The notes under the pieces were generated by a model. That model was not told where the DNA came from. It worked only from the letters and a program-made list of their open reading frames with translations, and did not search any database. Shown here piece after piece: positions 5,274-29,599 of a stretch of DNA of 33,557 nucleotides. Position 1 is the stretch's first letter. Every line of letters begins with the position of its first letter. A program made the position numbers and the translations under genes. Source of the DNA: a virus. The DNA lies in IMG/VR virus record IMGVR_UViG_3300042007_000191, positions 1 through 33,557 of that record; one strand, 5' to 3'.

Positions 5274-7256
5274 CTAGGCGGCGGTCTGGGTGCTGGTGTC
5301 GCCGAGATTGTCGGCGTGGTCGGCGTGGGCCCAGATACCGCGGTCGACGTCGACGGCCCGGCCGGCCTTCTTGAGGCGGGTGAGCGCGTTCTTGACGGCG
5401 CTGACGGTGAGTCCGGTGTCCTGGGCGATGGTGTTGCGGCCGACGGGTCGCCCTCGCTGGAGGAGGTAAGCGGCGATGGTGTCGTCACTGCCAGCGGGCG
5501 TTTCGGCCTCTATCGCAGCGGTGGCGGCTGCGATGGGGTCGGCTGAGGTCTGTGCACTCGGCGCGTCCGGGAGGATGACGGGTTCGCCGCGGAGTCGCGC
5601 TGCGAGGCGGTCGTGGCGTTCGGTGTAGGCCTTGCCGGTGCAGGCTTGCGCGGATGCTTCGGGTGTGGGGGTGGCGCCTGTGGTGGCCCAGTGGGCGGGG
5701 TCGCGGTCGAAGTGGGCGCGGAACTGGGCCTGGCGGTTGTCGGGGCCCTTGATGTAGCCGAGGCCGGCGGTGGATGTCTTGTCGGGCCAGTACATGGGCA
5801 GCTGGGACGGGTTGACCTCCCAGCCGGGCAGGCCGATGGAGTCGGTGAGCGTGGATGCGGTGCGGAACATGACGGTGTTGCCGGACTGGAGCTGTTCGCG
5901 GATGTCGGTGGATTCGGGTCCGGAGCCGTACATGTTGGCCTTGGGGCCTTGGAAGACGAGGCGGAGCTTGATGCCGCACTTGCGGGCCATGAGCACGATC
6001 TCGAGGACCAGTGCGGGCGCCCCGGGGAGGGCGAGGACGCGGTGGGCTTCGTCGATGGTGACGGAGATCAGCGGGTCGGGGGCGCCGACGACGAAGTGGT
6101 CTCGGCCGCGGAGGGTGCGCCCCTTGTGGTCGATGAACTCCATCATCGAGTAGCGGCCGGACCGCTCGTACATGACCTTGCGGACTTCGTGGAGCATGGC
6201 AAGGCCGCCCTGGGCGGTGTCCTCGTACCAGTCGACGGCCTCCCTCCAGCGCGGTAGGGACTGGCCGCCTTGGGGGTCGCACACCCAGGACACGATGCCG
6301 TTGTGGCGTTCGGTGCCGAGGAGCATGTCGAGGAAGCGGGACTTGCCGCCGTCGGTGGCCCCGTAGATGACGGAGTGGACGGGCCCGGACGGCTTCCAGA
6401 ACGCGTAGTGGGCGGGCGCCCCGTCGTAGAAGATCCCGACTTCGGCTTGCCCGGTCTTGGTGTCAAGGATGTGCGGGCCGGGGTAGTCGGTGCCCTTCGC
6501 GAGCGGGTTGTGGTCGAAGACGGCGATGATCGCCCGACGGGCTGACTTACCCATTGCCTTCTCGACCTGAATCATCTCTTCGGGCAGGTCCAGGTCGCCG
6601 GCGATGTCGTTGACGGCCGCGACGGCGCGCCGCCAGTTGCCCTTTTTGAGGACGATGACGCCGGTCCAGCCGTAGTCGGTGGTGACGACATCGACGAGCT
6701 TGGAGCCGGGCAGCGACCCCTCGGCGCAGGCGACTTCCTCCTGCCAGGCTTTCATCTGCTCGCCGAGGTCGGTGACAGCGGGGGCTGCGGTGCGGCGTCC
6801 GCGCCGCCACCAGTAGATGCCGTGGGCGAGGCCCCAGGTGAGGAGGAGGCCGGGGTAGGGGCTGTGGCCGGGCTGGAGTCCGCCGGTGGCCGCCATCGCG
6901 GTGAGGAGGCCGCCGCCGGTGGTGACGGCGGACGTCGCGGCGATGACGTCGCGGCGGGCGGGCATCCGCTTGCGGAGCCGCTTCTTGCCTACGCGGGCGT
7001 TCCAGCGGCCCCATGCTGCGGTGACCGCGGTCCCGGTGAGGGTGGCGGCGACGGCGGTCTTCCACCCGTCCGCGGGTACGGACAGCGCACTGCCGGCGAG
7101 GGCGAGGGTGGTGGTTGCGTAGAGGGGTGCCATGCCGCGGCGGGTCCGGTAGGCGAGCCGCATCAGCCGGCGGGCCCGCTTCGAGGCCGTCTTCCGGCTC
7201 TTCCCGGCGTTGGCGGTGGTGGTGCTGGGCTTGGCGACGGTGCTGGTGTTCGACAT
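5274..7256 (-). CDS. FtsK/SpoIIIE-TraB-like DNA translocase with membrane N-terminus and C-terminal winged helix
   Basis: A 660-residue protein. A basic N-terminus is followed by about four hydrophobic segments between residues 43 and 150, a linker domain, then a P-loop ATPase: Walker A YGATDGGKS (299-306) and Walker B LISVTIDEAH (396-405). The C-terminus (about 590-645) is a winged helix (NTIAQDTGLTVSAVKNALTRL). This matches Streptomyces TraB proteins, which form membrane hexamers and move double-stranded DNA between mycelial cells after recognising 8-bp repeats through the winged helix. Some actinophages also carry FtsK-like ATPases. Neighbours are Spd-like membrane proteins, supporting a transfer role. 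The ATPase class is firm; conjugation is inferred. Confidence 0.85.
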   Translation of the reverse strand: MSNTSTVAKPSTTTANAGKSRKTASKRARRLMRLAYRTRRGMAPLYATTTLALAGSALSVPADGWKTAVAATLTGTAVTAAWGRWNARVGKKRLRKRMPARRDVIAATSAVTTGGGLLTAMAATGGLQPGHSPYPGLLLTWGLAHGIYWWRRGRRTAAPAVTDLGEQMKAWQEEVACAEGSLPGSKLVDVVTTDYGWTGVIVLKKGNWRRAVAAVNDIAGDLDLPEEMIQVEKAMGKSARRAIIAVFDHNPLAKGTDYPGPHILDTKTGQAEVGIFYDGAPAHYAFWKPSGPVHSVIYGATDGGKSRFLDMLLGTERHNGIVSWVCDPQGGQSLPRWREAVDWYEDTAQGGLAMLHEVRKVMYERSGRYSMMEFIDHKGRTLRGRDHFVVGAPDPLISVTIDEAHRVLALPGAPALVLEIVLMARKCGIKLRLVFQGPKANMYGSGPESTDIREQLQSGNTVMFRTASTLTDSIGLPGWEVNPSQLPMYWPDKTSTAGLGYIKGPDNRQAQFRAHFDRDPAHWATTGATPTPEASAQACTGKAYTERHDRLAARLRGEPVILPDAPSAQTSADPIAAATAAIEAETPAGSDDTIAAYLLQRGRPVGRNTIAQDTGLTVSAVKNALTRLKKAGRAVDVDRGIWAHADHADNLGDTSTQTAA

Positions 7257-7328: not shown

Positions 7329-8150
7329 TTAGACGTCGTTTGTGTAGGCCTCCTTGGCCGCCATGCGTCCGCCCTGGGCTGCGACGGCTTCCTGGATGTG
7401 GGTGTGCCGGTCGTGGATGTTGCGGCTGGACTGGGTGGCGATGGCGGCACTGTCGAGGGCGGCCTTCTGGTACTGCTGAGCCATGGAGAGGGCCGCCGTG
7501 TAGGTGTCGCGGAGGGCGAGGAGCTCGTCGAGGGTGCCGCCGTCGTCTCCGAATTCGAGGGCGCCGGCCTGCTCGATGGCGGCCTCGATGGCGGCGAGCT
7601 GGTCGGCTGCCCGCTGGGCGAGGGCCGCGGCTTCCTCGGCGGTGACGTTGGCTTCGGAAGCGAAGCGGGCCACGGCGGCCTTGAGGGTGTTGACGCCGGT
7701 CACTTCGGGGATGGTGGCGAGGGCCATGGGGTCGTCTCCTGGGGTGTCGGGCTGGTCGGAGTTCTTGATCAGGACGAGGGTGGGCTTGGTGTCGGTCACC
7801 GGGTCGGGTGCGACGGGGTTGGTGGCCTGGGCCGGCTCCGAGGCGGGTCCGGTCTCGGGCTTGGATTCGGCGGCCGGTTCGTCTTTGCCGAAGCGGGCGG
7901 CGGCACGCTTGCGGGCCTTGGGCCACTCGCGCTTCCAGCCGCGGACGAAGCCCTTGCCGAAGGTCTGAGCGAAGGTGGCCGCGGTCGCCGTGTAGGCGGC
8001 GAGTTTCGCGCCGAGCTTCCGGCCGGCCTTCTTTCCGGCCTTGGCGACCCGCTTCTTGTGCTTGTCGCCGACCTCGCCGAGCGCGCTGTCGATCGCCTTG
8101 GCGCAGCAGTAGGCGATCGCGAAGAGCAGGATGAGGGCGAGCACGGTCAC
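7329..8150 (-). CDS. Spd-like membrane-anchored coiled-coil protein
   Basis: A 273-residue protein: one N-terminal hydrophobic helix (residues 1-18), a very basic region (about 28-90), a Pro/Thr/Asp linker and a long helical Ala/Glu/Gln-rich C-terminal half (about 145-270). The GTG start overlaps the upstream stop as GTGA, so translation is coupled to the four-helix membrane protein. The anchor, basic linker and coiled coil suit a protein that holds DNA or partners at the membrane, like the poorly conserved spread (Spd) proteins of Streptomyces plasmids. No family motif is recognised. Confidence 0.7.
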   Translation of the reverse strand: MTVLALILLFAIAYCCAKAIDSALGEVGDKHKKRVAKAGKKAGRKLGAKLAAYTATAATFAQTFGKGFVRGWKREWPKARKRAAARFGKDEPAAESKPETGPASEPAQATNPVAPDPVTDTKPTLVLIKNSDQPDTPGDDPMALATIPEVTGVNTLKAAVARFASEANVTAEEAAALAQRAADQLAAIEAAIEQAGALEFGDDGGTLDELLALRDTYTAALSMAQQYQKAALDSAAIATQSSRNIHDRHTHIQEAVAAQGGRMAAKEAYTNDV

Positions 8151-8614
8151 ATCCCCAGGAGCAGGCCGATGAGGCGGCCGACCTGGGTGGCGATGAATCC
8201 GAGCAGGCCCGCGGCGCCCTCACCGAGAGACCCGGGGATCATGACGGCCAGGAACGGGGTGACCGCGGCCAGAATCAGCGTCCGCGGCTGCACCCCGGTC
8301 ATGAAGTCGGAGATCAGCCACAGCAGCGCGGCCAGCGCCACGGCAAAGCTGATCCCGACGCCCGTGTACTGGCCGACGATCCCCGACACCGCGCCGTCCA
8401 CGACGGTCACCGTCCGGTTGAGGAACTGGCCGACCGGGGTCGAGACCAGACCGACGGACGCGGTCAAGACGAGGATGGTCTGGATCTGCGGGCTCTTGAC
8501 CTTCCCGGCGAGCTTGTTGATCCACGGGAGGCGGTCGGCGACGAACAGCACGCCGGCTGCGCCCAGGCAGGTCCCTCCGGTGGCGACGGAGATCCCTGCA
8601 TCGATAGCAGGCAT
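8147..8614 (-). CDS. Multi-pass membrane protein, Spd-like
   Basis: A 155-residue protein that is mostly hydrophobic, with four or five predicted membrane helices (about 8-28, 44-64, 82-105, 112-128, 132-152). AGAGGGG precedes the ATG. Translation is coupled to the downstream coiled-coil gene. Position upstream of the translocase agrees with Streptomyces spread proteins, which assist intramycelial plasmid movement. No sequence motif proves this. Confidence 0.7.
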   Translation of the reverse strand: MPAIDAGISVATGGTCLGAAGVLFVADRLPWINKLAGKVKSPQIQTILVLTASVGLVSTPVGQFLNRTVTVVDGAVSGIVGQYTGVGISFAVALAALLWLISDFMTGVQPRTLILAAVTPFLAVMIPGSLGEGAAGLLGFIATQVGRLIGLLLGM

Positions 8615-8742: not shown

Positions 8743-8976
8743 TCAGCTCGCCGCGATGTCTTGCCTCAGTTCGTCCAGCAGCTGGACGGCCTGCCGGGCG
8801 GCTGCTGCCCGCTGGGATTCGGGGAGCTTGGCGATCGCGGCGCGGAGTTGGTCCACGGCGATCGGCAGTGCGGTGAGGGGGCCTTCGGCGTCCGCGGCTC
8901 GCCGCCTGTCGCCCAGGTGCTGGGCGGACCGGGCCTGTCGTTCGGCCTGTCGGGGGCGGCGGGTGCGGGGCGTCAT
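8743..8976 (-). CDS. Small basic helical protein
   Basis: A 77-residue protein: an Arg-rich N-terminus (TPRTRRPRQAERQARS) followed by a helical region ending in LDELRQDI. GGAGGG precedes the ATG at 8976; the longer upstream frame lacks a start site and is low complexity. It may bind nucleic acid. The 128 bp downstream of it holds a GCGC-rich stretch (8658-8685) and no gene I can support. Confidence 0.6.
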   Translation of the reverse strand: MTPRTRRPRQAERQARSAQHLGDRRRAADAEGPLTALPIAVDQLRAAIAKLPESQRAAAARQAVQLLDELRQDIAAS

Positions 8977-9101
8977 CGGTTCCCTCCGGGTGTGTGGTCT
9001 GCCGGGTCTGCTTGCCGGGTCTGCGAGGGTGCCGCTCACCGGTTCACTCGACGGCTTGACCTGCTGGTTTGTGGTTCGGACTGCTTCCGGCAGTCTCAGC
9101 A

Positions 9102-9128
9102 AGGTCCAGCAACAGGGGTGCTGGGCCT
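9102..9128. terminator. Hairpin downstream of the SpdB-like gene
   Basis: An inverted repeat AGG-t-CCAGCA / TGCTGG-g-CCT with a 7-nt loop, 22 bp past the stop of the gene at 9150. Likely a partial terminator in the operon. The 173 bp around it (8977-9149) also contain GCCGGGTCTGC twice, 13 bp apart (9001, 9014). Confidence 0.55.
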
Positions 9129-9149: not shown

Positions 9150-10220
9150 TCAGGCGGAGACGGTCTGGGCTTCGCGGGTCTCGATCTCGCCCCAGATACG
9201 GCGGACGCGGTGCTCGCCGCCCTGGAAGCCGGCCTTGCGGAACGCTTCCTGAGCCTGGCGGTAGGAGCGGGGCGGTTCCATGGCGTAGCGGAGCCAGCGG
9301 AGTACGACGTCGAGCTGTTCGTCGGACAGCTGGGCGCGGGGCTGGGGCAGGGGTACGCCGTCGATGTCGGCCAGTTCCTGCAGCGTCATGGCCCGCTCTA
9401 CGTGGACCTGCTCGACGGGCTCGGCCTCGTCCGTTTCGTCCGGTGTCACAGGCTGTGGTGTCACGCCCGCGATCTCCGGCCTGACCTGTGTGACACCCGT
9501 GACACTCTGCTGTGTCACGGCGTGGCGTGACACGGTCAGCGCCAGGTCCCGCGTCAGGAAGGCGCGGGCGGCCTCGCCGTACTTCTTGTCGGCCTCGGCG
9601 AGGGTCTTCTCGGCCTTGGCGCGGGCCTCGTTGATCTCTGCCTGAGCCATGGTGAGGACTTCAGCGCGGGCGATTTGGCGGCGCAGCTCGGCGCGGTGCC
9701 CGGCAGTCTCGGTGAGGACTTCTGTGTGGGCTTTCGATTCCAGGTGCCGGGCGTCGGCTGCGGCGAGGGCGCGGGCGTTGCGGTCGGCGGCCGACTGCTT
9801 GGCGATCTGGGCCGCTGTCGTAGGGTCCGCGAGCATGTTGCCGGCGAACAGGCGGAGACCCATGAACACGGCGGCCGCAACGGGGACGAAAGCGAACACC
9901 TGGGCGTGGCCGAGCTTCAGGAGCGTGGCCACCGAAACGGCGATGGCGACCAGGGCGACGGCGAGGAACACGGCCATGCCGACCTTCGACCGCTGCCGGA
10001 TCGCGACCTCGGACATGCGCAGGGCGCCGATCCAGAGGGCGTCGTAGACGATGGCGATGGACCAGCCGACCGCGAGGGCGGCCTTGCCGTGCAGGCCGAT
10101 CATCTCGCCGAGCTGTCCGCCGACTGTCACGGCCATGAGGGCCAGGGCTGCGGCGGTGAGGAGCTTTTCCACGATGGCGAAGACGTCCATGCGGACGTCC
10201 CGCAGCTTGCTGAGGTTCAC
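9150..10220 (-). CDS. SpdB/DUF2637-like membrane protein with coiled coil and C-terminal DNA-binding-like region
   Basis: A 356-residue protein. Residues 10-130 hold four hydrophobic helices, typical of SpdB/DUF2637 proteins of Streptomyces conjugative elements. Residues 140-225 are a charged helical coiled coil. Residues 229-259 are rich in VT(Q/G/P) repeats encoded by the GTGTCAC cluster. The last about 80 residues (LSDEQLDVVLRWLRYAM...SYRQAQEAFRKAGFQGGEHRVRRI) resemble a helix-turn-helix. SpdB proteins bind DNA and TraB and help spread plasmids across septa; that role is inferred. The start has only a weak upstream purine run. Confidence 0.75.
   Translation of the reverse strand: MNLSKLRDVRMDVFAIVEKLLTAAALALMAVTVGGQLGEMIGLHGKAALAVGWSIAIVYDALWIGALRMSEVAIRQRSKVGMAVFLAVALVAIAVSVATLLKLGHAQVFAFVPVAAAVFMGLRLFAGNMLADPTTAAQIAKQSAADRNARALAAADARHLESKAHTEVLTETAGHRAELRRQIARAEVLTMAQAEINEARAKAEKTLAEADKKYGEAARAFLTRDLALTVSRHAVTQQSVTGVTQVRPEIAGVTPQPVTPDETDEAEPVEQVHVERAMTLQELADIDGVPLPQPRAQLSDEQLDVVLRWLRYAMEPPRSYRQAQEAFRKAGFQGGEHRVRRIWGEIETREAQTVSA
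9443..9533. repeat. Six GTGTCAC/GTGACAC repeats, three in each orientation
   Basis: Plus-strand GTGTCAC at 9443, 9458 and 9512, and its complement GTGACAC at 9490, 9499 and 9527, all within 91 bp inside the SpdB-like gene. They encode the VT-rich segment but are more conserved at DNA level than the amino acids demand. They could be recognition repeats for the TraB-like winged helix (a clt/TRS-like locus) or for a regulator. Confidence 0.6.
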
Positions 10221-18817: not shown

Positions 18818-19563
18818 TGCGCGTCCTCGACGATCTCGGCGTCGTGGATCTCGTCGGCGTGCTCGGCGAGGTAGCGGGCCGAGATGGCGCGCCGTCGGGC
18901 TTCCTCCGCGGCCGCAGCTTCCGGGTCTGGCAGGGGCTGGCCGCCGGCAAGGAGGCGGCGCTCGGGGTGGGGGGAGCGCTCCTTGCCGAGCGGGTGCCGG
19001 TCGCCGAGGGCGGGGCGTCGACAGGGGCGACCTATGGCGGCCTCGCACTTGGGGCAGACCACACCGAGCGGGCCAGCCCGCCGGACCGTGCTGACCGCCT
19101 CCGCCTGGGGGTCGCTGTCGTCGGGGTTGGGGACGGCGCGGTTGCCCTGCCAGCCGCGGGCCTCAAGCTCCTGCATGAACTCTTTGGACGGGCCGCCCGT
19201 GAGGGCGAGCCGTCCGGCGGGGGCCGGTACGTGGCCGGAGGCGATGGCCTGAACCTGGCCGCGGTAGCGGGCGAGGTACTCGGCGGTGCTCTCACCGGCG
19301 ACCGGCTCGTACTGGAAGTTCTCCAGCCGCGCGGACCGGATCTTGGATCGAAGGGTGCGGACGTGGTGGGGCAGGATCCACAGCTTCGCGTCGGGGTCCT
19401 TCGGCGGGGTCGTGTAGTAGGCGTCGATGGCGGCTTTGGCGTCGGCGTCCAGCGGTACGTCGCGGAGGGCCGAGGACCAGGCGATCGCGGCGGCAGTGCT
19501 GGGCTTGCGGTTGTCGAAGGCGGCGCAGTAGCCGAGGAGCTTGGCGGCTTCCTTCTCGTTCAT
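18814..19563 (-). CDS. Probable helicase loader (G39P-like N-terminus) with zinc ribbon
   Basis: A 249-residue protein. The N-terminal 75 residues (EKEAAKLLGYCAAFD..., LDADAKAAIDAYYTTPPKD, HVRTLRSKIR) have the helical pattern of phage G39P-type helicase loaders. A CPKCEAAIGRPC...H..R zinc motif follows at about 172-205, and the C-terminus is a charged helix. It is co-translated (ATGA) directly after the initiator gene, like lambda O-P or SPP1 gene pairs. Homology is remote and judged by pattern; position strongly supports a replication role. Confidence 0.6.
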   Translation of the reverse strand: MNEKEAAKLLGYCAAFDNRKPSTAAAIAWSSALRDVPLDADAKAAIDAYYTTPPKDPDAKLWILPHHVRTLRSKIRSARLENFQYEPVAGESTAEYLARYRGQVQAIASGHVPAPAGRLALTGGPSKEFMQELEARGWQGNRAVPNPDDSDPQAEAVSTVRRAGPLGVVCPKCEAAIGRPCRRPALGDRHPLGKERSPHPERRLLAGGQPLPDPEAAAAEEARRRAISARYLAEHADEIHDAEIVEDAQ

Positions 19564-20498
19564 GCGGAGTCCTCGGAGTCGAAGGAGTCGGCGATGGCGG
19601 CCCAGCCGGCGACGGTGGCGTCGGTGCCGGTGAGGGTCTGGCCGGAGGGGAGTTGGACGACGTTGCCGCCGGGCCGCTGCTGCTGGCGTTGGCTGGCGCG
19701 CTTGGCGTCGTCGCGGATCCACTTCTGCCAGGCGTCGGGCCATGAGCGGCGATTGACGCCTGTGGAGCGGTAGTGGCTGACGAACTGGGCGGTCGAGTGC
19801 TCGACGTCGAGGCCGGGGTAGACGCCTTCGGCCCAGCGGCGCATGGAGTCGGTGACCGCGAATCCGGCGTCGTCGATCGGGGCGCTTGGCGCGAGCCCCT
19901 GGGGTCCGTAGGTAGAAGCACCCACCTCAGCCATAGAGGTTGTTGGTGGTTCTACTGGTGGTTGATTGGTGGTTACGGCGGCACTGAGTGCGTGACGGCC
20001 GGATTTAAAGTGCGTGACGTCACGCACTTCAAGTGCGTGACGGCCGGACTCAGAGTGCGTGACATCCGGATTCGTCACGGATTCCGCGTCCGTGACGGTC
20101 ACGTCGTTTGAGTGCGTGACACGCTTGGCGCGGGACCGACGCTTCCGCTCCGCAGCCGCCTCCCTCGAAGCCGCCTCCTCCCTCTCCAGTTCCACCCAGT
20201 CAGAGGCGTCCCGGAGCAGGTGCATCGACAGCTTGTACTTGATCCGGTCTTGGACCATGCCGTCGCGGACGATCAGCTTGGCGTCCTCCAGCCGGCGCAG
20301 CGCTCGCTGAACGGTGCGCCGGTCGTAGCCGGTGCGGTACTGGAGGCGGGTGACCGAGGGGTGCGCGTTGGTGCCGGTCTTAGATGCGTGTTCTGCGAGG
20401 GCCTGGAGCACGTGCCGCGACGTGCTGTCCGGCTTACCGGACGGCGTGCGCAGCATGGGCGCGTCGTCCATAGCCCAGTTCACGGCCTCGTTGCTCAC
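19560..20498 (-). CDS. Replication initiator-like winged-helix protein carrying the origin in its gene
   Basis: A 312-residue protein. Residues 25-105 form a winged helix (SRHVLQALAEHASKTG, RLQYRTGYDRRTVQRALRRLEDAKLI). Residues 126-171 are repetitive (DVTH..SGRHAL) because they are encoded by iteron-like DNA repeats. The C-terminal part includes ADAWQKWIRDDAK and a Gln/Arg-rich segment. An N-terminal DNA-binding domain followed by in-gene iterons is the organisation of lambda O. The start is a GTG with a weak AGAGAAG site. A transcription factor is the alternative, but the iterons and the loader next door favour replication. Confidence 0.72.
   Translation of the reverse strand: MSNEAVNWAMDDAPMLRTPSGKPDSTSRHVLQALAEHASKTGTNAHPSVTRLQYRTGYDRRTVQRALRRLEDAKLIVRDGMVQDRIKYKLSMHLLRDASDWVELEREEAASREAAAERKRRSRAKRVTHSNDVTVTDAESVTNPDVTHSESGRHALEVRDVTHFKSGRHALSAAVTTNQPPVEPPTTSMAEVGASTYGPQGLAPSAPIDDAGFAVTDSMRRWAEGVYPGLDVEHSTAQFVSHYRSTGVNRRSWPDAWQKWIRDDAKRASQRQQQRPGGNVVQLPSGQTLTGTDATVAGWAAIADSFDSEDSA
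19944..20120. repeat. Putative replication origin: decamer iterons plus AT-richer flank
   Basis: Five direct copies of AGTGCGTGAC (19987, 20009, 20032, 20054, 20111) and one inverted copy (20019-20028). The first four direct copies are 22-23 bp apart, two helical turns, so they face one side of the helix. Copies two and the inverted one form the perfect 20-bp palindrome AGTGCGTGACGTCACGCACT. Next to them, 19944-19974 holds TGGTGGTT three times (19944, 19956, 19967) in DNA with clearly lower G+C than its surroundings, a possible unwinding element. Confidence 0.68.
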
Positions 20499-22046: not shown

Positions 22047-22994
22047 CTACTGGGCGCCGAGCGTCAGCAGACGGGTGTTGATGTAGTCGGCGAGGGTGAC
22101 CGCCGAGCCGTCGGCCGGGTCGAGGAGCGGCGTGGCCTGCAGGCCGCGAGACTCGACCTCTACGAGCAGGGTTGACAGCGCGTCCTGGCCGGCCTCGGCC
22201 GCGGTGGCGCGGTCGACGTAGGTGGCCGGATCGACGGGCGCCGCGCCGTCGTTGAGCCAGGTGTTCAGCGTCTTCGCGATCTGCATGCCGTCGGGCCTGG
22301 TCACGTTCAGGCCGTGCAATTCGGGGCAGCGGGACTTGATGACGGTGAGCCGGTTGTCGGTGTCCATTTGAGCGACGACATCGAACTCGTACTCCACGCC
22401 GCGTCGCTGCTCGGGTCGGGTGCCGAGGCGTACCGGCTCCTTCTTCCCATTGGCGTTGGTCTGCAGGGACCACTCGGTGTGTGACCGCATCGTGGCCACG
22501 ACGTGCCCGGGGTACGAGAGCAGGGCGTCGACCATGGAGTTTTGAAGCGGGGTGCCCTCGGACCAGCCGGCGAAGGAGTTGCCGCCGTAGCCCTTCTTGG
22601 CGGCGCGGTCGACCTGCTCGAGGGTTCCGTCGGTGCCGGACCAGAAGTGCGACCAGGAGTCGACCATGACGGCCCCGTATCCGGCGTCCGCGGCCGCGGC
22701 GAGGGCGCCGATCAGGTTGCGGGGGTCGAAGCTCTGCAGCTGCAGGGTGTCGAAGTGGATGCCACGGAGGCCGGCGTACTTGGAGGCGGCGCCGCGCTCG
22801 GTGTCGATGACTGCAAATCGGTCGGCGAGTCCGGCGGTGAGGCGGAGGCCGGTCCAGGTCTTGCCGCTGCCCGAAACTCCCATGAGGGCGAAGCGAGCTT
22901 TGGCCTTCTCGCGTGTGGCCGGGGTGAAGGTGAAGCTGCCGGCAGCCTGGCTACCGGGGGCGGGGCGGTCGTTGTTGCCCTGGAGGCGGGACAT
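22047..22994 (-). CDS. Sak4-type RecA-like ATPase (AAA_24)
   Basis: A 315-residue P-loop ATPase: Walker A GVSGSGKT (39-46), a strand leading to DTERGAASKYA, Walker B AVMVDSWSHFW (D112), and a RecA-like C-terminal half ending VLTLADYINTRL-like. This is the phage Sak4/AAA_24 family, single-strand annealing or RecA-like recombination proteins often paired with an exonuclease, as here. ATAGGAG precedes the ATG at 22994; the exonuclease ends 8 bp upstream. Probably works on replicating or concatemeric element DNA. Confidence 0.83.
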   Translation of the reverse strand: MSRLQGNNDRPAPGSQAAGSFTFTPATREKAKARFALMGVSGSGKTWTGLRLTAGLADRFAVIDTERGAASKYAGLRGIHFDTLQLQSFDPRNLIGALAAAADAGYGAVMVDSWSHFWSGTDGTLEQVDRAAKKGYGGNSFAGWSEGTPLQNSMVDALLSYPGHVVATMRSHTEWSLQTNANGKKEPVRLGTRPEQRRGVEYEFDVVAQMDTDNRLTVIKSRCPELHGLNVTRPDGMQIAKTLNTWLNDGAAPVDPATYVDRATAAEAGQDALSTLLVEVESRGLQATPLLDPADGSAVTLADYINTRLLTLGAQ

Positions 22995-23002
22995 GGTGGC
23001 TC

Positions 23003-23860
23003 CTATCGGGCGGGCTGGAGGGCAATGGTGGTGCCGTCCTCGCGGGCGGTTCGGTAGGCGATCCGTCGGCCGAGGTGGACGGCGTTGCGGCCGTTGCCGA
23101 GGGCGTCGAGGAGGAGCGACTTGGCTGCCGTGTACTCGGCGTCCGCGGCGACCTTGGAGTCGCGGCACACCTCGTAGCGGGCGGCGATCGGGCCGGGGAC
23201 CTCGACGTCGATCTCGTCGTACCGGTCGGGCTGGAGGCGGATCGTGTCGTAGGTGTGCTGGGTGTTGCCGACCTCGGGCCGCCGGCAGGTGCGGACGTCG
23301 TCGAGGAACTCCTCCGCGGCGGCCCGCATGGTGGCGGCGTCGGCCGGGTCGTACTCGACGGTGTATTCGCGGTAGTCGTGGCCGGCGATCAGGACCGCGA
23401 CGTGGCAGACCTCGAAGCCGAGGGTGTCGAGCTGCCACTGGGTCTGGCAGTAGTAGTGCAGGGGAACGCCCTGGTCCCACTCGTGGGCGACGGGGCTGGT
23501 CTTGATCTCGACGATCTCGTTGTGGCCGAGGAGGTCGGGGGTGGCACGCTGCCAGGGACGATCCTGGTGCTGCCAGGTGCCCGTCTTCGTGAGGGTTAGT
23601 TCCGGGTGCTCGTCCTGGAACTTGGCGCCGACGGCGGGCTCCAGGCGCGTCCCCCATTCGATCTGCGGGGTGGCCGTGAAGGGCGGGACTCGCAGGCCGC
23701 TCTTCTTGTGCCAGAGAGTGAACTGGTCCGACCAGGGCGAGACGCCCATGACGGCGGCGATCTCGGTGGCGGTGATGCACAGGCCGGCGCGGGCGGCGTC
23801 CCACTCTGGGGTGCCGGGGGTGAACTCGCCGAGGAGGACACCAGTCGGGGTCTCCATCAC
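23003..23860 (-). CDS. YqaJ-type recombination exonuclease
   Basis: A 285-residue PD-(D/E)xK nuclease of the YqaJ/lambda-exonuclease family: GLCITATEIAAVMGVSPW (27-44), E74 in WGTRLEPAVG, D109 in RATPDLL, E118-x-K120 in VEIKTS and the conserved YYCQTQWQLD (137-146). It should resect double-stranded ends to give single strands for the Sak4-type partner downstream. The start is a GTG overlapping the upstream stop; an ATG one codon later is equally possible. Confidence 0.88.
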   Translation of the reverse strand: MMETPTGVLLGEFTPGTPEWDAARAGLCITATEIAAVMGVSPWSDQFTLWHKKSGLRVPPFTATPQIEWGTRLEPAVGAKFQDEHPELTLTKTGTWQHQDRPWQRATPDLLGHNEIVEIKTSPVAHEWDQGVPLHYYCQTQWQLDTLGFEVCHVAVLIAGHDYREYTVEYDPADAATMRAAAEEFLDDVRTCRRPEVGNTQHTYDTIRLQPDRYDEIDVEVPGPIAARYEVCRDSKVAADAEYTAAKSLLLDALGNGRNAVHLGRRIAYRTAREDGTTIALQPAR

Positions 23861-24099
23861 AGGACGTTCCCGGCGATGCGCTGGAGCTGGTCCATGCCGG
23901 TCTCGTCGTACTTGGCGAGGCGGACGGCGGCGGCTTCGCCCGGGTAGATGGTGGCGAGCTTGGCCGTGTTGCTCTCGTCGGCGTAGGCGAGGAGCTCGAG
24001 GAGCTTCTGCGTGTAGGTGCCGGGCCGGTAGCCGCCGTCGCGGCCGAACGTCCAGATGACGTGGGCGGCGGTCTCGGCGGTGATGGTGGGCTGGGACAT
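23857..24099 (-). CDS. Small protein upstream of the exonuclease
   Basis: An 80-residue mixed protein (TAETAAHVIWTFGRDGGYRPG..., LLELLAYADESNTAKLATIYPG). CCGGAGACC precedes the ATG at 24099; the stop overlaps the exonuclease start. Found by position with recombination genes; not recognised. Confidence 0.65.
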   Translation of the reverse strand: MSQPTITAETAAHVIWTFGRDGGYRPGTYTQKLLELLAYADESNTAKLATIYPGEAAAVRLAKYDETGMDQLQRIAGNVL

Positions 24100-24131
24100 G
24101 ACGGTCTCCGGTTCAAGGGTGTGGCGGGCCG

Positions 24132-27843: not shown

Positions 27844-28301
27844 TGTCATACGAGCCTCTGCAAGCCTGCGCCGAGCTAGGAATCTCAGTCGAGCGCATGT
27901 GGCTGCGGGACACCTGGGGTGCGTGGGTGCCCCAGTACCGAGCGATAGTGCTGGCCGAGGGGCTGACCTCCATTCAGGAGCGCTGCGTGCTCGCCCACGA
28001 GCTTGAGCACGCCATCGCCCAAGACGAGATCGGGTGCGGCAGCGGCCCCTACGCCGACCGGCTGGCCGCCGAGGGTGGCCAGAACCTGATCGCCATCAAG
28101 CAGGAGCGCCGCGCAGACAGAGAGGCGTGCCGCAAGCTGATAGCGATCAGCGACCTCGGTGAGGTTGCCCGCTGGGCCGGCGGCATGGGCGCCGCAGCAG
28201 AGGAGTTGGGAGTCACCGAGCGCATGCTGAGCATCCGACTTCAGGACCTCGAGGGCGAGGGGTGGCCGTGGCCGCTGGAAACATCGAAGATCGCTGGCTG
28301 A
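27843..28301 (+). CDS. ImmA/IrrE-type metalloprotease
   Basis: A 152-residue protein with the zinc-protease motif HELEH (H52, E53, H56) in CVLAHELEHAIA and a downstream E88 in the QERRADREA helix as the likely third ligand. The C-terminus has a helix-turn-helix-like AAEELGVTERMLSIRL. ImmA-type proteases cut XRE repressors to induce mobile elements; the repressor gene lies immediately upstream and the integrase starts inside its 3' end. The family call is firm; the substrate is inferred. Confidence 0.85.
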   Translation: MSYEPLQACAELGISVERMWLRDTWGAWVPQYRAIVLAEGLTSIQERCVLAHELEHAIAQDEIGCGSGPYADRLAAEGGQNLIAIKQERRADREACRKLIAISDLGEVARWAGGMGAAAEELGVTERMLSIRLQDLEGEGWPWPLETSKIAG

Positions 28302-29599
28302 GCAAGAGGAAGAACCCGGAAACGGGCAAGAGGGAGCGAACCGCCCGCTACGGAAAGGGCGCGCGGTACCGGGTCAAGCAAATCCCGGGAGTACGAGACC
28401 GCTCCTTCCACTCGCTCGAGGACGCCAAGGCGTGGCTCAAGAGGGCCACGACCGACGTAGAGCGCGGCGAGTTCTACGACCCCAGGAACGGCGACATCAC
28501 CCTGCAGGACTATGTCGACAACACCTGGTGGCCCGGCTTGCGCATGCCTCCCACCACCAAGGCCAGCATGAAGTACAGGATCTTCGGCCACATCATCCCG
28601 CTTGTGGGGCACATGCGGCTGAACCGGATCGGCCCGGACGAGATCAGGCTCTGGCTCACGCAGGTGGAGCAGCGGGTAGACGTCAGCACCGCCCGCGTGA
28701 CCTGGCGGCACTTCTCCTCGATCATGCAGGCGGCGTACAAGGCGAAGAAGATCCCCGCGAACCCGTTCAGGGACGACGACCTCAAGGCGCCTAGCCCTCC
28801 CAAGTCGAAGGCGAAGGCCTGGCCGGTCGAGACCGCCGCAGCCGTTCGGGCGCAGCTGGACGCGCGCTATCGGGTACTGGTGGACCTGGCTCTGGGTGCG
28901 GGTCTGCGGCAAGGGGAGTGCTTCGGATTCTCTCCCGACGACCTCGACGGCGAAGTGGTCCAGGTGACGCGGCAGATCGTCAAGGTGGGATCGCAGTTGG
29001 CCTTTGCTCCGCCGAAGGGCAATAAGGAAAGGGAGGCCCCTTGCCCGCCTGCCCTTGCGGAATTGATCAAAGAGCACATGCGCGAATTCGGCACGGTCGA
29101 GGTGACCTTGCCGTGGGTTGACCCCGACCGGCCGAACCTTGCATGGGAAAGCCGGCCGACACGGACAGTACGTCTCCTAGTGACAACGCCACGGACCGCC
29201 GGGAAATCCGGCGGAGCCATCAACCGAAGCACCTTCGATGACAAGCAATGGAAGCCCGCCTTGGCGAGGGCGGGGGTGATCGCGCCCCCCAAGCGGGAGA
29301 CCGTCGAGCTCCCTGGAGGAGCGACTCGCGCACGTATCTCATGGGCCATGCCCAGGGAGGACGGCTTTCACGTGCTGCGACACACCTTCGCAAGCGTCAT
29401 CCTGGCTGGCGGCGAGACGATCACCAAGCTGGCCGAGTGGCTCGGCCACAGCGACCCGGCCTTCACTCTGCGGACCTACGTACACTTCATGCCGCGGGCC
29501 GGCGAGCGCGGCATCGAGGCCCTCTCGGCGATGTTCCGGAGCGTGCAGGAGTCCCCTGCGGAGCGAAACTCCCCAGAGACTCCCCAGCCCTCCGAGTGA
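28262..29599 (+). CDS. int: Tyrosine integrase
   Basis: A 445-residue tyrosine recombinase. The N-terminal AP2-like/SAM-like arm and core-binding domains (1-180) precede the catalytic domain with R216 (GAGLRQGE), K252 (PPKGNK), H370-x-x-R373 (HVLRHTFAS), H396 (LGHSD) and Y406 (LRTYVH). It starts at a GTG 40 bp inside the ImmA-like gene. Its last codons contain one pair of arm-type repeats and the rnpB-derived core lies 40 bp further, so it almost certainly acts on that site. All catalytic residues are present. Confidence 0.95.
   Translation: MAVAAGNIEDRWLSKRKNPETGKRERTARYGKGARYRVKQIPGVRDRSFHSLEDAKAWLKRATTDVERGEFYDPRNGDITLQDYVDNTWWPGLRMPPTTKASMKYRIFGHIIPLVGHMRLNRIGPDEIRLWLTQVEQRVDVSTARVTWRHFSSIMQAAYKAKKIPANPFRDDDLKAPSPPKSKAKAWPVETAAAVRAQLDARYRVLVDLALGAGLRQGECFGFSPDDLDGEVVQVTRQIVKVGSQLAFAPPKGNKEREAPCPPALAELIKEHMREFGTVEVTLPWVDPDRPNLAWESRPTRTVRLLVTTPRTAGKSGGAINRSTFDDKQWKPALARAGVIAPPKRETVELPGGATRARISWAMPREDGFHVLRHTFASVILAGGETITKLAEWLGHSDPAFTLRTYVHFMPRAGERGIEALSAMFRSVQESPAERNSPETPQPSE

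Follow-up and report, generated by a model that had tools for sequence, protein, structure and literature searches.

Transfer and maintenance functions of Streptomyces elements provide the closest described counterparts of the locus considered here. TraB is described as finding its DNA via clustered short repeats (PMC4170104, PMC5133688, PMC12857230), and the TGACACC repeats in the clt of pWTY27 are bound by TraA (PMC3583192). The Spd proteins are placed together with TraB in the vegetative septa during spreading (PMC5133688). For pSVH1, SpdB2 is described as an integral membrane protein which forms oligomers, interacts with TraB and binds DNA non-specifically, while an spdB2 mutant of SLP2 displays reduced stability (PMC4170104). 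Likewise, the stability protein SpdA2 of pIJ101 is described as binding a short site, sps, within the coding region of its own gene, with an accompanying plasmid-stability phenotype (PMC4170104).

The locus that we compare with these systems lies in a window of 33,557 nucleotides, by which we mean the whole stretch of DNA that was analyzed (IMG/VR virus record IMGVR_UViG_3300042007_000191, positions 1 to 33,557). It consists of a dense cluster of a short word within the linker codons of a SpdB2-like gene (Table 1). We propose that this cluster is probably an array of binding sites, which is read by the C-terminal helix-turn-helix of the very protein whose linker it encodes, and which might tether the element for spreading or inheritance.

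Table 1. Features of the SpdB2-like locus and its neighborhood in the window
Feature	Position	Strand	Remark
TraB/FtsK-like translocase with C-terminal winged-helix-like region, rival reader	5274..7256	-	
Small gene directly downstream of spdB	8743..9102	-	possible partner
SpdB2-like gene, 356 aa, GTG start	9150..10220	-	holds the site cluster
C-terminal helix-turn-helix, about residues 298-352, proposed site reader	9165..9329	-	predicted structure
Residues 334-338 (GGEHR), start of the predicted recognition helix, covarying with the motif	9207..9221	-	
Linker codons, residues 228-273, pLDDT <50	9402..9539	-	contain the site cluster
GTGWCAC cluster, six sites	9443..9533	.	within the codons of residues 230-260

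Within the cluster, GTGTCAC occurs at 9443, 9458 and 9512 on the plus strand and at 9490, 9499 and 9527 on the minus strand; elsewhere in the window there are only single copies at 20116 (minus) and 27115 (plus), so that six of the eight copies fall inside 91 bp. Across 1000 dinucleotide-preserving shuffles of the window, the maximum count per 91 bp was two, and GTGACAC/GTGTCAC is the tightest-clustered 7-mer of the window. The element thus carries clustered short repeated words of the kind by which clt/TRS regions are recognized. A sequence-only reading of this DNA, which had reported the cluster as lying far beyond chance, was correct on both the positions and the improbability. The count over the whole element that it had suggested as a check yields the above eight copies against 4.4 expected, with at least eight in 6 of 100 shuffles; hence, the word is not clearly enriched over the window as a whole. 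Its tally of three copies per orientation is accurate, but GTGWCAC is a palindrome around a W center, and the two orientations therefore represent six copies of one near-palindrome rather than independent facts. It had further pointed to a 13-mer, GTGTCACGGCGTG, shared with an immunity region as a hint of a common binding protein. This 13-mer is indeed present at 9512 and 27115; however, 58% of 400 random 91-bp stretches have an exact match of at least 13 nt with the rest of the window. The sharing is hence chance-like and carries no weight, and we reject it as the mark of a common binding protein.

The single copy at 20116 forms part of another array in a different gene, namely a set of 22-bp repeats at about 19987-20120 with a AGTGCGTGACG core and a CGTGACGTCACG palindrome, situated inside an HTH_36-domain gene (19560-20498, minus strand); from its sequence this array looks like replication iterons within an initiator gene. 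The contig also bears phage-like genes (573-2834, 155-511, 22047-24116, 23003-23860 and 28262-29599), with products that include a collagen/GDSL tail-fibre-like protein, an HNH endonuclease, an AAA_24 ATPase, a YqaJ recombinase and a tyrosine integrase. Their co-occurrence with a TraB/Spd module could mean that the contig is a phage-AICE mosaic or, alternatively, that an integrated element was swept into a provirus call. A terminase profile finds a match in 3 of 10 related viral records, and no near DNA relative of window bases 1-24000 was recovered among phage records.

Our scans recovered 10 viral and 7 genome loci whose best segment is 61-73% identical to the window. All 17 relatives have a cluster at the same place; these comprise 15 distinct elements, with the linkers of L019 and L020 repeating those of L009 and L014. 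Their words differ, with nine of the 15 using GGTCAC (L009, L011, L012, L014, L015, L018, L021-L023), four GGCCAC (L013, L016, L017, L024) and two a mixture of C/TGTCAC (L010, L025). The spdB2-like gene of SLP2 also carries such a cluster. In every one of the 17 elements compared (the window, SLP2 and the 15 distinct relatives), the element's own word reaches its highest density per 210 bp in the spdB linker, as judged over the whole window and over 6-13 kb of each relative.

These clusters extend well beyond the immediate relatives, and across the wider set of genes TGTCAC, GGTCAC, GGCCAC, CGTCAC, CGGCAC, GGACAC and CGACAC are all seen at this place. A search of Streptomyces genomes gave matches in 41 of 392 (E up to 1e-8), and a profile of the C-terminal domain detected it in 80 of the 394 genomes searched at the family level and in 13 of 296 at the class level, all 13 of which the family search had also listed. 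Of the 150 loci examined, 149 contain the domain, and 137 of these are distinct. We dropped the 12 duplicates among the 149, L028-L030 (the same places as L019, L024 and L021) and L032 and L239 (no domain); the remaining loci of the later searches repeat rows already in the set. In an unbiased test of all 6-mers against a synonymous null with family-wise correction, which left out the short L098, p<=0.05 was reached by 51 of 75 linkers of protein family A (domain score of 80 or more), 24 failing this strict test, and by 7 of the 74 control regions taken from these genes; in the more distant family B, the counts were 10 of 61 linkers and 4 of 41 control regions. When 17 named words were tested (at most 5% of shuffles reaching the count, uncorrected for the 17 words), 107 of the 113 linkers had at least four copies of a word, compared with 7 of the 113 after synonymous shuffling and with 1 of 111 control regions; with at least three copies as the threshold, the counts were 111, 14 and 4, respectively. 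The low counts in the control regions and shuffled linkers support a site array. The linkers mostly hold 4 to 14 copies within the 390 bp analyzed. Two of them (L088 and L161) have 13-14 copies of CGTCCC, which breaks the CAC ending of the other words. A second, more distant family (L100-L159), mostly with the helix ASEVRLRAAW and common in the Streptomycetaceae genomes searched, displays at most a weak CGTCAC excess of about 4 versus 1.8.

The protein encoded by the window's gene has a hydrophobic N-terminal half (read from the sequence by eye), a long helix, a linker predicted to be disordered and a C-terminal helix-turn-helix. In the full-length AlphaFold2 model built from 16 sequences, most of residues 1-166 are of low confidence; the long helix precedes the linker, whose residues 228-273 are without confident structure, and helices at 280-287, 300-313, 320-329 and 336-355 are predicted at good confidence. 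Modelled alone, the C-terminal 80 residues reach a pLDDT of 88, and we read the predicted arrangement of helices as a helix-turn-helix. The closest solved folds are mostly the DNA-binding domains of Fur/Zur, a weak resemblance (best Z 6.3, rmsd 1.6, 53 residues) with YqeY as the second-best aligned chain (Z 6.1). Foldseek with this model returned no match below E 0.7, a search of PDB sequences with the C-terminal alignment none up to E 1, and curated Pfam/NCBIfam profiles none above their cut-offs for the P0001, SLP2 or pIJ101 proteins. The window protein shares its C-terminal domain with the "spdB2-like" protein of SLP2 (54.5% identity over 77 residues) and with SpdB of pIJ101 (a partial match of 29 residues with E 2.3e-8, the search being of this single sequence), which places it among the SpdB2-like proteins by this domain.

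A comparison of this domain with the words reveals that the two vary together. To an initial 75 genes we added others from plasmids and viral contigs, giving a set of 113 genes, of which 107 could be labelled with a word of at least four copies; the short-linker L208 was left out of both this and the viral-contig test. All 27 labelled genes with an Arg or Lys at residue 335 (29 such genes in all) have a word that begins with G, against 0 of the 80 with another residue there. Within the 75-gene set, A[RK] helices have a first base G in 19 of 20, the remaining one being unlabelled; GG/GA helices other than GGEH have CGTCAC in 30 of 30; GGEH goes with TGACAC/TGTCAC, both within GTGWCAC, in 3 of 4, again with one unlabelled; and GS helices have a first base C in 19 of 21. 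The resulting helix-to-word rule was fixed from these 75 genes, at a threshold of at least three copies, before new sequences were tried. Besides SLP2, 20 of 43 plasmid matches were sampled: all 20 have a significant word and 18 of the 19 with a rule agree, though this set has no A[RK] helix and is therefore a weak test of the first-base rule. Of eighteen new genes from viral contigs, 17 fall under the rule and 15 of them agree with it, GS being scored by first base only; all eight A[RK] helices and the single GGEH are among those in agreement. Two of the 15 (L202 and L207) combine the helix GSDERLR with CGACAC, a word absent from the rule, and thus agree by first base only; they are another paired change of helix and word. 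The rule failed twice in the viral-contig test and once in the plasmid test, and weak exceptions appear at three or more copies (L078 and L086, with GGGCAC three times and GS helices). The threshold of at least four copies was adopted after these two had been seen, and at that threshold there is no exception among the 107. The sub-code is imperfect: SREG pairs with GGTCAC and AREG with GGCCAC, GS helices pair with CGGCAC, CGTCAC or CGTCCC, and the third base follows no clean rule.

Since the sites and the helix reside in one gene, common descent or joint recombination can mimic such coevolution. A scan of 268 alignment columns in the window's clade (n=25) speaks against pure linkage: columns 334, 335 and 337 best predict the first base, and domain columns nearer the linker (297, 303) rank lower; for the whole word, 337 and 324 rank first. 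Across all 107 genes, the best predictor of the first base is again 334; columns distant from the helix (56, 34 and 192) are next in rank, as shared descent would give, and 324 and 335 are the best for the whole word. When the linker and the five recognition columns were left out of the tree, each trait changed five times on it, and four independent supported pairs all changed in the expected direction (sign test p=0.125); a smaller gene set offered two independent pairs. Taken together, the proposed reading of the sites by the SpdB-like protein's own helix is well supported by these comparisons, and from the covariation we infer that SpdB would physically bind them.

One alternative is that the DNA has no function here, with the cluster being a by-product of a Val-Thr-rich linker peptide, of pausing at rare codons or of mRNA structure. 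Such linkers are indeed found in many relatives, and ACA and TCA, both rare codons, occur in the window's copies. However, when the peptide is held fixed and codons are drawn from the usage of these genes, only 0.18 GTGWCAC are expected against the six present, a number reached in 0 of 5000 draws; codon choice rather than the peptide thus makes the cluster. Further, the window spells its word as VT, VSR, SVT and GVT, and the GGTCAC copies of L021 are spread over all three frames (as GSH, RVT, GH, GVT and VT); on these grounds, together with the synonymous null, we reject a peptide-level repeat as the source. The CGTCAC copies, for their part, mostly use common codons such as GTC and ACG. At the RNA level, the window cluster folds better than dinucleotide shuffles (z -4.1), but against synonymous shuffles z lies below -2 in only 2 of 26 genes and reaches +3.2 in one, for which reason an mRNA hairpin is rejected. 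Hence, we regard the by-product explanation as extremely unlikely: the cluster is a DNA-level site array in a conserved place, real and widespread. A DNA-level array might alternatively serve autoregulation, wherein SpdB's own helix-turn-helix reads the sites and the bound protein blocks transcription through its gene. Sites within the binder's gene could act as such a roadblock; yet both the usual number and spread of the copies and the lack of any GTGTCAC over the 9.8 kb that lie upstream of the window's spdB fit a tether better than an operator. We consider this purpose unlikely.

The reader itself might be another protein. The sequence-only reading had favored the winged helix of the TraB translocase, which would make the cluster the element's clt. 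It recognized correctly that these are DNA-level sites of the general kind found in clt/TRS clusters, and the case for TraB has its attractions: the mode of DNA recognition described above, the presence of traB in the same gene group as spdB, and three occurrences of the pWTY27 word TGACACC in the window cluster. The window's translocase is 23-39% identical to plasmid proteins among the matches listed (30 of 155), some annotated as FtsK/conjugative transfer, and has no match up to E 0.01 among PDB sequences. Its identity to the counterparts in the 17 relatives is 75-84% for eight and 24-36% for the remaining nine. Near-identical TraB recognition helices of the LTVSAVKNALTRL type (the window, L010, L011, L012, L014, L015, L024 and L025) go with three motif classes, TGTCAC, GGTCAC and GGCCAC, and GGTCAC is common to three unrelated TraB helix types. 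Across the window and its 17 relatives (the TraB end being cut off in L009), the word thus does not follow the TraB recognition helix, and TraB does not fit as the reader. We accordingly reject it as the main reader, and deem it quite improbable that the cluster is the element's clt. The product of the small downstream gene, or some other third protein encoded by the element, is a very unlikely reader. In 16 of 17 relatives, tblastn matches the small gene's product next to spdB, in several cases over no more than 18-40 residues, but L021, which has a strong cluster, gives no match; and the variation of the motif with specific SpdB helix residues could be explained otherwise only by linkage.

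Returning to the reading of the array by SpdB itself, we advance the following plausible mechanism, in which the tethering, spreading and stability roles are our guess from the literature. The SpdB2-like molecules would be anchored in the membrane by their N-terminal part and reach out on the flexible linker, with several of them gripping the element's DNA at its own spdB gene. The gripped element, and only that element, might then be tethered to the TraB/Spd machinery at the septa, a tether that would serve both mycelial spreading and stable inheritance in a clt- or centromere-like role. As word and recognition helix change together, each element would carry its own address. We put forward, as a proposal to which we give slightly less than an even chance, that in Streptomyces plasmids and integrated elements the SpdB2-like proteins act as self-addressed tethers: the gene for the membrane anchor would double as its landing site, and helix and word would co-diversify such that co-resident elements grip and spread only their own DNA. 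If so, the covariation table could quite possibly be read as a code from helix to base for a DNA-binding domain that is as yet undescribed, although we hold this too only tentatively. Were this to be so, a specific site and reader of the SpdB2 class would be in hand, about 100 natural protein-site pairs would predict binding preferences, and the specificity of the elements, possibly also their incompatibility, would find an explanation. The proposal bears on the role of the Spd proteins and on how Streptomyces elements mark their own DNA for crossing septa.

How, then, does this array relate to the known systems? In the open-access literature, to which our search extended, we found no description of clusters in spdB linkers; the primary papers on TraB sites and SpdB2 binding lie outside that search. 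SpdB2 of pSVH1 and spdB2 of SLP2 belong to the same general protein class, and the SLP2 gene has its own cluster; in contrast, for pSVH1 SpdB2, which we compared by description, only non-specific DNA binding is reported (as cited in PMC4170104). With the TraB clt/TRS systems (pSVH1 GACCCGGA; pWTY27 TGACACC), our locus shares a cluster of short repeats beside traB on a Streptomyces conjugative element, with words that differ between elements. Unlike these, the spdB cluster lies within the spdB coding sequence and its word does not track the TraB helix.

The SpdA2/sps system is a working precedent for a site within its reader's own gene: the window's sites likewise lie in the gene of their proposed reader, whose binding the covariation suggests, and CGTCAC, the word seen most often in the spdB clusters, is a half-site within the sps palindrome CGTCACGTGACG. 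The palindrome itself has no match in the window at up to one mismatch, and its one match at two mismatches (at 20013, in the repeat array) is fewer than shuffles give. On pIJ101 (L026), the two sps sites at 8140-8184 hold four CGTCAC half-sites; as the SpdB helix of this plasmid (SAGEAR) is without an Arg/Lys at the first-base position, its SpdB might also read sps. The differences are nevertheless clear: SpdA2 is small, has a zinc-finger hit and goes with a 12-bp palindrome that is nearly constant and present in 1-3 copies, whereas the spdB clusters belong to a membrane protein with a helix-turn-helix and mostly comprise 4-14 copies of a 6-7 bp word that varies between elements. A comparable arrangement exists in phage lambda, where the DNA-binding protein O has its iterons inside its own O gene; there, the sites serve replication initiation with a fixed sequence rather than membrane tethering. 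If our proposal is true, the spdB clusters would be a further case of a mobile element hiding a cis-site inside the gene of its reader.
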